Of a DNA stretch of 32,000 nucleotides, positions 12,488 through 16,226 are shown piece after piece. How positions within the stretch are numbered: position 1 is the first letter of the stretch; each line of letters opens with the position of its first letter. The DNA comes from Herminiimonas sp. GTDB lineage: Bacteria; Pseudomonadota; Gammaproteobacteria; Burkholderiales; Burkholderiaceae_D. The DNA is taken from assembly GCA_014376645.1 (NCBI GenBank), contig JACMRD010000215.1, positions 1 through 32,000 of the forward strand, in the 5' to 3' direction. The translations under genes and the position numbers were made by a program. Below the pieces are notes generated by a model that saw only the letters and a program-made list of their open reading frames with translations, had not been told where the DNA came from and did no database searches.

Positions 12488-13348
12488 ATGTCCGTCTCAG
12501 TCACCGTCCCTGCTGCAAGCCCCCTCGCGGCCCCAGTGCGCACTGTTTTCTTCGTCTCCGACGGCACCGGCATCACCGCCGAGACCTTCGGCCACTCGGT
12601 ACTGAGCCAGTTCGAACTGCGCTTCAAACAGTTTCGACTGCCGTTCATCGATACGATGGACAAGGCGCGCGATGCCGTGAACCGGATCAACGAGACCTTC
12701 GAGCGGGAGGGCAACCGGCCGATCGTCTTCTCGACCCTGGTCAACGCCGAGATGTCAGAGCTGGTACGCAAATCCAACGGCATGCACATGGACCTGATCA
12801 AGACCTTCGTCGATCCGCTGGAGCAGGAGCTGGGCGTGAAGTCGACCCATACCATCGGCCGCAACCACAACATCACCGATTCCGAGGAATACAAGAACCG
12901 GATCGAGGCAATTAATTTTTCATTGGCGCACGACGATGGCCAGACCAACAAGAACCTCGATGGCGCCGACGTGATCCTGGTGGGCGTTTCGCGCTCCGGC
13001 AAGACACCGACCAGCCTGTACCTGGCGATGCAATACGGGATCAAGGCAGCCAACTATCCGCTGATACCCGAAGATTTCGAACGCGGCAAGCTGCCCGGCG
13101 GGCTGCTCGAGTTCAAGCACAAGATTTTCGGCCTGACGATCGCGCCCGACCGCCTGGCGGAAGTCCGCAACGAGCGCCGTCCGGGCAGCAAGTACGCCGC
13201 CATCGAGAACTGCCGCTACGAAATCAATGAGGCCGAATCGATGATGCATCGCGAGGGCATCCGCTGGATGTCGTCGACCACCAAGTCGATCGAGGAAATC
13301 GCCGCCACCATCCTGCAGGAAATCAAGGTGGAAAAACGCTTCTACTGA
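12488..13348 (+). CDS. ppsR: PEP synthetase regulatory protein (PSRP kinase/pyrophosphorylase, DUF299)
   Basis: [57 protein letters not shown]; divergent from ppsA. Confidence 0.95.
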
Positions 13349-15323
13349 GTGGGCTGAAGATGGTTGTGAGCCGGTCCGGTTGTCCTTCGATGCGTTCGAG
13401 GTGCGGATAGCGCAGGCCTCCGGCATACGGCACGTTGACGACGCTGACCCGGTTCTCGCGCCGGACGATCAGTTCGATTGGTGTCGATTTACCGGCGCCG
13501 TCGGCCAACGCTGCGCTCAACTCCGGACATTTGTAGACATGCCCGTTGACGGCGAGAAGCGTGGCGCCGGCACTCAGTCCGGCCTTGAATGCCGGGCCGT
13601 CCCACAGCACGCTACCGATCGCATCGTTCTTTCCCACGGTCAGCCCAAGCGAGTAAAACGCCTCGCATTCGCCGTTCTCCTTGTTGTTCAGGACGGTCAC
13701 CGGATTGGGTGTGCTGCGGTAGGCCAGGCGCCAACCCGTGAGCGTAAAATCGGCCAGCAGCTCGCGCTCATCCCTGGCCGTCAGCCGGGCCCGCAACAGC
13801 GTCGCCCAATCGTAGGGCGCCACCGCATTCAATCCCGCCACCACATCTTCGAAGCGATACGCCAGCGGAGTGCGCAAGGGCTCTCCATCGACTGCAAAGA
13901 AGGCTGCCGAAAAATCGTCGAGCGAGCGGCGCTCGCCGGCCAGCGAGCGGATGCGAGCATCGATGCCGAGCCACATGATGGCGGCTTCGCCGTAGTAATC
14001 GAGCTGGCGCTGCCAGTTCGGCCAGCTGCGCGGCACGCTGCGGTGGGCCATGATTTCATCGTTGACCGTATCCTGCAGATCGCGCCAGGCCCGGCCCCGG
14101 CGCACCTCGATACCGGCCAGTTGCAGGGCCAGGCGATCGCGCGCCGTCTCCAGACTGCGAAAACCGGCACGCGCCGACAGGACGTCGCCGTAGTAGGAAG
14201 TCTGGCCCTCGTAGACCCAGAGCAGGGAGTTCTGCAGCGGCTCGCTAAAGTTGCCGGTGAACTGATCGGCCGGACGCCGGAACTTGCCATTCCAGGCGTG
14301 CACGTATTCATGCGGGACGACGCCGCTGCGCGCCGAGGATGTCAGCACTTCGGCAAGATAGGCCGGCTTTTCGACGATCTCGGTCGACTGGAAATGTTCG
14401 CGGCCGATGCCGCCGATACCATCGGTGAGCGCCATCAGGAAATCGTAGTGCGCGAAGGGTGGTGCGCCGAATACTTTCTGTCCCTGCTCCACCAGCGATC
14501 GGTGCGCCGCCAGTACCTTGTCGCCAGCGGCCAGTTGCTCGGCGCGCTCGGCGAAGACATTGAAGCGCACCGGCGGCGCACCGGAAGGCGCCAGATCGTA
14601 GCGCTTGAAGTGGCTGCCTGCCATCAACGGCGAATCGATCAGGGTGCCCAGGTCGGTCGACTTGAAGCGCACCGTGGATCCATCGCGACCGGCTTCTTCC
14701 AGCGCCGTGGCATAGTCCCAACGGGCCGGCAGGCGCACGCGCGGCTCGACCGTGATGCCGCTGGCCGCGACGCCGGCCGGATACAACAACACGGAATGAA
14801 ACTGCAGATGCACGATGTCGCTGGTCATGACGACCCGGCCCTGGGTCGGCAACAACGGCGAGACGAACTGGAAATCGATTTCCAGCGAGCTCACTCCCGC
14901 CGGCACATCCACATGAAACGCAAACACGTTGAGGCCATCGCGCAGCCAGCGCAGCGGCTTGCCGGCGGCCGTGATCTGCAAGCCCGTCAGTGCTGCAACG
15001 GTGCCGATCGGCGCGTGCGAACCTGGTATCCATTGCGGGTGCAACAGCACCAGGTGACCGGCCGTGACCGGCACGCTCTGATGCACCGACATGATCTTGT
15101 GATCGAGGTCGCTGAGATCGATCTCCAGGCCGATGGTGCCGGCGTAGCGGGGCGCCAATGACGCAGCGGCAGCAGGCATGCCGGCGCTCGCGTTTTCGGC
15201 TGCAGCGTGCGCGGCCTGAATGCCTCCCAAGCTCAGAACCAGTCCCGCCAGGACAACCGGGATCGTTGCGCACGCACCGACGATCCGTCCGACCGAGCGA
15301 CGTGCAACTCCAAGAAACGACAT
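13323..15323 (-). CDS. M61 family metallopeptidase with PDZ domain, exported
   Basis: Signal peptide [50 protein letters not shown] (HExxH); C-terminal PDZ-like [24 protein letters not shown]. Confidence 0.92.
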
Positions 15324-15328
15324 GCGTA

Positions 15329-15364
15329 CTCCAGCAAAATTATTGGTTTGCAATGTTGCTGGAG
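15329..15364 (-). promoter_or_regulatory. RBS-sequestering hairpin in the M61 peptidase leader
   Basis: CTCCAGCAA-(18 nt)-TTGCTGGAG; the right arm contains the GGAG Shine-Dalgarno located 5 nt before the ATG at 15323. Confidence 0.55.
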
Positions 15365-15419
15365 CACTTGTCAGAAGGCAAGTGAATTGTGCCACCCGGA
15401 TACAGGCGGTGGCCGATCC

Positions 15420-16226
15420 TCAGGACGAGGTGGGGATGTGCGCTCGTTGCCGTACTTGCTCGAAAAAGCAGACGGCGGCACTGGCGGCGACATTCAGGGA
15501 TTCGATCGCGCCCGGTTGCGGAATGGCGACACGGTGCGTGGCCAGTGCCATCAACGGCTCGGACACGCCCTGCCCTTCATGACCGAACAGCCAGGCCACC
15601 GGCTGGCGCAAGTCGAGCGCATAGAGCGACGTGCTGGTGTGCGAACTGGTCGCGACCACCGGGATGCTGCTGGCGGCGACGAGCGCGGCCAGGTCGACGT
15701 TCTCGGCGATGGTCAACAGGAAATGCGCGCCCATGCCGGCCCGCAGCACCTTCGGCGCCCAAGCGAAGACGGTGCCGGGGCTGCAGAAGACGGACGCGAC
15801 CCCGGCAGCGGCCGCGCTGCGCAGGATCGACCCCATATTGCCAGGGTCCTGCAGGTTGTCGAGCAAGACCGCCGATTGGGTGAGTTGCGGCGCCGTCACC
15901 GCTTGCGGGGTATCGACCACGAACAGCAGGTCGATGCCGTGCTCCACCTGGCTCAGCGCCTGGAACAGCGCATCGGGCAGGACGATGCAGTTGGCGCGGC
16001 CGGCATCGCACGCCGCCATCAGTACGACGACCTCGGGATGCAGGCGCGCCGATTCGCCGATCACGCACAGCTGCGGCATGCCGACCTGCTGCAGGTAGGC
16101 TTCGCACAAATGCACGCCGTCGAGCAGCGTGCGCCCGGAACGACGCCGCGCTTGCGAGCTCGTCGCCAGCAGCCGCATGTCTTTGTAGAGCGGGTTGTCA
16201 CGAGAGGTGATGGTCTTGATGGTCAT
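15420..16226 (-). CDS. TrmH/SpoU family RNA methyltransferase
   Basis: [89 protein letters not shown]. Confidence 0.93.

Follow-up and report, generated by a model that had tools for sequence, protein, structure and literature searches.

A predicted stable hairpin over the Shine-Dalgarno sequence of an M61 metallopeptidase gene in Herminiimonas: a possible lineage-specific brake on translation

The spacer between a trmH-type RNA methyltransferase gene and an M61 family metallopeptidase gene contains one exceptional hairpin. Its 3' arm covers the only good Shine-Dalgarno sequence (SD) of the peptidase gene, and the SD is predicted to be held closed. Both genes lie on the minus strand of the window, that is, the whole stretch of 32,000 nucleotides of Herminiimonas sp. 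DNA that was analysed. The meaningful element of the spacer may be a static, lineage-specific brake that sequesters the SD and holds down translation of the M61 gene. This reading is offered tentatively, at a little less than an even chance, and draws on folding predictions and genome comparison. The element is of an ordinary kind, an SD-sequestering hairpin, in a lineage-specific place. If it forms in the cell, the stem is notable mainly for a stability well beyond that of a thermosensor and for preceding a gene that, among the genomes examined, occupies this locus in a single one. The features concerned are as follows, in window coordinates.

15420..16214, minus strand: trmH-type (SpoU family) RNA methyltransferase gene; stop codon at 15420-15422; Pfam SpoU_methylase, 3.7e-33
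15391..15413, minus strand: hairpin 1 (GCCACC-11-GGTGGC); partly populated, near chance level
15365..15384, minus strand: hairpin 2 (CACTTG-8-CAAGTG); near chance level
15326..15367, minus strand: hairpin 3, predicted to sequester the SD; 5' arm 15367-15356, 3' arm 15337-15326
15329..15332, minus strand: GGAG, the SD of the M61 gene; wholly within the 3' arm of hairpin 3
15321..15323, minus strand: ATG start codon of the M61 gene; outside the helix
13323..15323, minus strand: M61 family metallopeptidase gene; 666 aa plus stop; HEYVH motif; signal-peptide-like N-terminus; Pfam Peptidase_M61_N, 1.5e-31, and Peptidase_M61, 4.2e-29

The trmH stop and the M61 ATG are separated by 96 nt on the minus strand, and the five nucleotides TACGC stand between GGAG (15332-15329) and the ATG. 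The M61 frame extends open upstream to a GTG at 15395, which would add 24 codons. This GTG was considered as the start and rejected. The 24 codons have a noncoding composition (GC3 of 0.29 versus 0.77 for both M61 and the genome median), and no SD was seen by eye ahead of the GTG. For these reasons, and because the signal-peptide-like N-terminus starts at the ATG at 15323 (judged by eye, not by a predictor), this ATG was taken as the start. The peptidase frame is intact and its GC3 is normal.

The first-pass annotation had described the spacer as three abutting perfect inverted repeats, with GGAG inside the 9-bp arm of the last, 5 nt from the ATG. All three repeats are exactly where they had been placed, and the arm and its distance from the ATG are as described. 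Hairpins 2 and 3 do abut, but a six-base gap (15385-15390) separates hairpins 1 and 2. The third stem was real but understated, as folding extends its 9 Watson-Crick pairs by 3 more, one of them the only G-U, so that 12 pairs join the 5' arm GUGCUCCAGCAA (15367-15356) to UUGCUGGAGUAC (15337-15326). In the feature listing, the arm letters are 5' GTGCTCCAGCAA and 3' TTGCTGGAGTAC. The folding prediction gives this helix about -19.8 kcal/mol at 37 °C. Its loop of 18 nt is A/T-rich, has a weak inner 4-bp stem, and is predicted to be largely single-stranded. Because the extension of hairpin 3 uses three bases of hairpin 2, the latter is mostly displaced at 37 °C, with a predicted probability of 0.06; the value for hairpin 1 is about 0.42. 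The predicted pairing probability of hairpin 3 is 0.92-1.0 in a 520-nt native context. The SD is predicted to be closed in every context tried, from 91 to 520 nt, and the proposal that the last stem occludes it is borne out at this level. Such stable pairing of the SD in the leader, as predicted here, is what marks a generic SD-sequestering attenuator. The outer three bases lengthen the stem only in the sense RNA, via the G-U pair, and the fold energies are -19.8 kcal/mol for the sense strand and -16.9 kcal/mol for the antisense strand. This asymmetry slightly favours RNA over DNA as the level at which the stem acts.

The background rates show where the unusual structure lies. Of 5000 spacers shuffled with their dinucleotide content preserved, 47 contained a perfect repeat of 9 bp or longer and 2 contained three non-overlapping repeats of 6 bp or longer. 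Hairpin 3 alone has a z of -5.8, with 0 of 1000 shuffles as stable, and the trmH-side 55 nt, comprising hairpin 1 and most of hairpin 2, are no better than their shuffles (z -0.2). The excess structure of the spacer sits almost wholly in hairpin 3; it is one exceptional stem, not three. A triplet of hairpins read by eye can thus shrink to a single significant stem once the background and competing folds are counted. The stem was also compared with 403 starts that carry an SD-like motif, taken from about 1.03 Mb of contigs of the same genome. The ranks are approximate, as the background genes were called crudely, by ORF length and codon-position G+C, but the M61 SD is, of all 403, the least likely to be unpaired (1.4e-4; median 0.44), and no other SD is covered by so long a perfect repeat (9 bp; the next has 7). 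The opening cost is 14.2 kcal/mol, compared with a median of 6.25. It is as high at 11 of the 403 starts, which weakens the case for a brake, and it is reached by 5 of 267 in a cleaner subset (ATG starts with a good SD).

These figures also bear on a neutral explanation, in which the palindrome arose by chance or came in together with the M61 gene and, even if it alters expression slightly, was not selected for any role. The 47 shuffles with an equally long repeat leave room for this. There is also a selection effect, since the stem was picked from a window of roughly 30 genes that was read for oddities, and a rank of one in 403 multiplied by roughly 30 genes is not negligible. Conservation was not seen in the relatives searched. 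However, the stem ranks first of 403 on two separate measures, and its 3' arm falls exactly over the only good SD. A chance origin is regarded as fairly unlikely.

The thermosensor suggested by the first-pass annotation fails on the prediction, since the SD is closed at all temperatures from 10 to 75 °C. An RNA thermometer was rejected on this temperature series, in which the SD bases are unpaired at 0.02 or less even at 75 °C. A thermometer of the fourU or ROSE type was rejected as well: there is no family match and no fourU, and the helix is uninterrupted. The closest parallel in layout is the yscW-lcrF fourU thermometer, also an intergenic operon spacer, roughly 100 nt long, in which hairpins follow one another and the final one pairs with the downstream SD (PMC3280987). 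The lcrF stem of Yersinia, imperfect and rich in A-U and G-U pairs, opens over the range from 25 to 37 °C and was locked off by mutations that stabilised it (PMC3280987). It has internal loops and weak pairs, and the whole 124-nt region has about -19.7 kcal/mol (PMC3280987). Here, in contrast, a single uninterrupted 12-bp helix has that energy alone and is predicted to be closed up to 75 °C.

A ligand switch, which had also been raised, finds no footing either. Rfam searches, run at the gathering threshold and also more permissively, returned nothing beyond chance matches to hairpin-shaped miRNAs, and there is no surplus structure upstream of the stem. A translational riboswitch was rejected as a candidate, with no aptamer family, an upstream z of -0.2, and an SD that stays paired when hairpin 2 is enforced. 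In the platform of the gonococcal gcvT glycine riboswitch, a hairpin between leader and SD likewise blocks translation (PMC13104608); unlike that system, the present spacer has no recognised aptamer, surplus upstream structure, or competing antisequestor. A consensus scan found no intrinsic terminator, and no T-run follows the stem on either strand.

A genuine switch might instead be worked in trans, by a small RNA, an RNA-binding protein, a helicase, or a processing nuclease that, under some condition, unfolds the stem or cleaves within the A/U-rich loop and so turns on an otherwise silent exported peptidase. Such very tight predicted closure in front of an intact gene of normal composition suggests that some route to expression exists, and the 18-nt loop is A/U-rich and predicted to be largely single-stranded. 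Nevertheless, there is no antisequestor, aptamer, or Rfam element, the rest of the genome contains only 14-base matches to the spacer, and nothing found points to any factor; a switch of this kind is considered quite improbable. In its boldest form, the exported M61 peptidase, its gene recently inserted, would be kept silent by a newly evolved, non-thermal RNA lock and released by an RNA, protein, or nuclease acting in trans. This form is judged highly improbable. If true, it would be a case of a regulatory hairpin arising together with a gene insertion at a conserved junction.

Coupling to upstream translation was another early suggestion, by which ribosomes finishing trmH would open the stem. 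The two genes are on the same strand and in the right order, and many coupled gene pairs have structures that close the SD (review PMC12548453). The phage f1 VII-IX, MS2 coat-lysis, and rpmI-rplT pairs resemble the present case in that, within a polycistronic mRNA, the SD of the downstream gene is covered by a hairpin (PMC12548453). They differ in that their upstream ribosomes reach or overlap the hairpin, whereas the trmH stop is 53 nt short of the 5' arm. When sequence was removed computationally from the 5' side, the SD remained closed until about 54 nt or more beyond the stop had been cleared, so at least 53 nt past the stop would have to be traversed and terminating ribosomes do not come close enough. 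In f1 VII-IX, coupling was abolished when the stop was shifted well upstream of the hairpin, at a spacing of +89 nt (PMC12548453), a loss that speaks against coupling across the present gap. Inspection of the spacer by eye showed no leader ORF preceded by a credible SD. With 53 nt between the trmH stop and the helix, coupling is extremely unlikely.

The inverted repeat could also act as DNA, as an operator or protein-binding site for an M61 promoter within the spacer. The dyad is near-perfect, with 9 bp about an A/T-rich centre that contains AATAAT. In addition, a palindrome, TTGCAAA-N4/5-TTTGCA, precedes some M61 genes of the same family; it is found upstream of M61 at seven family loci (L120, L123, L125, L129, L130, L136, and L137), where it is possibly an operator. 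Against an operator here, the repeated occurrence expected of a regulon is missing. The 9-bp dyad is present just once in the 3.38-Mb genome, with no second copy to support the annotation's alternative, and in 3 of 294 other family genomes, there with unrelated centres. A consensus scan found no convincing promoter. Across the 300 nt that precede the ATG, the most promoter-like pair, which includes the AATAAT of the hairpin loop, was equalled in 27 of 100 shuffles. Overall, an operator is improbable. The genome's own TTGCAAA...TTTGC echo of the relatives' palindrome was set aside: its gap differs, and two occurrences in the genome versus one control match are at chance level.

The genomic setting is unusual. 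In relatives with a readable locus, rnhB and trmH point towards ppsR (and ppsA), with at most a short stretch between them, and in a same-genus genome the ends of trmH and ppsR overlap. The window differs in having the M61 gene between trmH and ppsR. The simplest reading of these arrangements is that the M61 gene was inserted at the trmH/ppsR junction in this lineage. On this reading, the insertion exchanged one convergent overlap, trmH/ppsR, for another, M61/ppsR. The last codons of M61 overlap the 3' end of ppsR in antisense at window positions 13323-13348. The nearest M61 proteins, from family genomes and wider genome contigs, have about 50% identity. At that level, the same-genus genome has no M61 gene. 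Plasmid M61 relatives are below 50% identity and share no common locus. No M61 leader homologous to this spacer was found in any relative searched, which counts against the brake. The spacer has no other copy in its own genome, with matches of at most 14 bases to any part of it; no viral copy of the spacer or dyad was found, and plasmids gave just a weak 42-base match. In M61 leaders elsewhere, the median unpaired probability of the SD is 0.23 (n = 48 with a good SD; starts chosen automatically), and the SDs of most M61 relatives are not comparably closed. The enzyme therefore does not need such a brake in general.

A lineage-specific static brake would work as follows. Read-through mRNA from the rnhB-trmH side would fold hairpin 3 while being made, 30S subunits would seldom reach GGAG, and peptidase output would settle at a low basal level. 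The stem would be peculiar to the lineage in which M61 came between trmH and ppsR. The analysis shows the repeat, its rarity, the predicted closure of the SD, and the place of M61 between genes that are neighbours elsewhere. We infer that the stem forms in the cell, that the gene is co-transcribed with trmH, and that protein output is affected. Several findings are consistent with this model: a helix stability matched by none of the 1000 shuffles, a first rank among 403 starts on both SD measures, persistence of the fold in 520 nt, extension pairs available in the sense RNA only, an intact peptidase frame, and an M61 gene between otherwise adjacent genes. On the other hand, a transcription start inside the loop of hairpin 3 would mean that the stem never forms. 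If the brake operates in the cell, it adds another example of an SD-masking hairpin that sets translation.

Other observations concern the same junction and the same gene family. Three other family genomes carry a different trmH/ppsR insert (L145 520-1226, L146 2268-2790, and L148 2262-2893), namely a small ORF, encoded on the opposite strand, whose product of roughly 120-150 aa has a hydrophobic N-terminus. The trmH/ppsR junction appears to tolerate insertions. In one further relative (L149 2268-2371), this junction contains a long inverted repeat, GTAGTGCAGGCCTCCGTGCCTGC ... GCAGGCACGGAGGCCTGCACTAC, which resembles a repetitive extragenic palindrome. In a same-family relative (L125 3516-3642), M61 and its neighbour diverge, and the protein encoded by the neighbour looks, by eye, like a small heat-shock protein of the Hsp20 kind.
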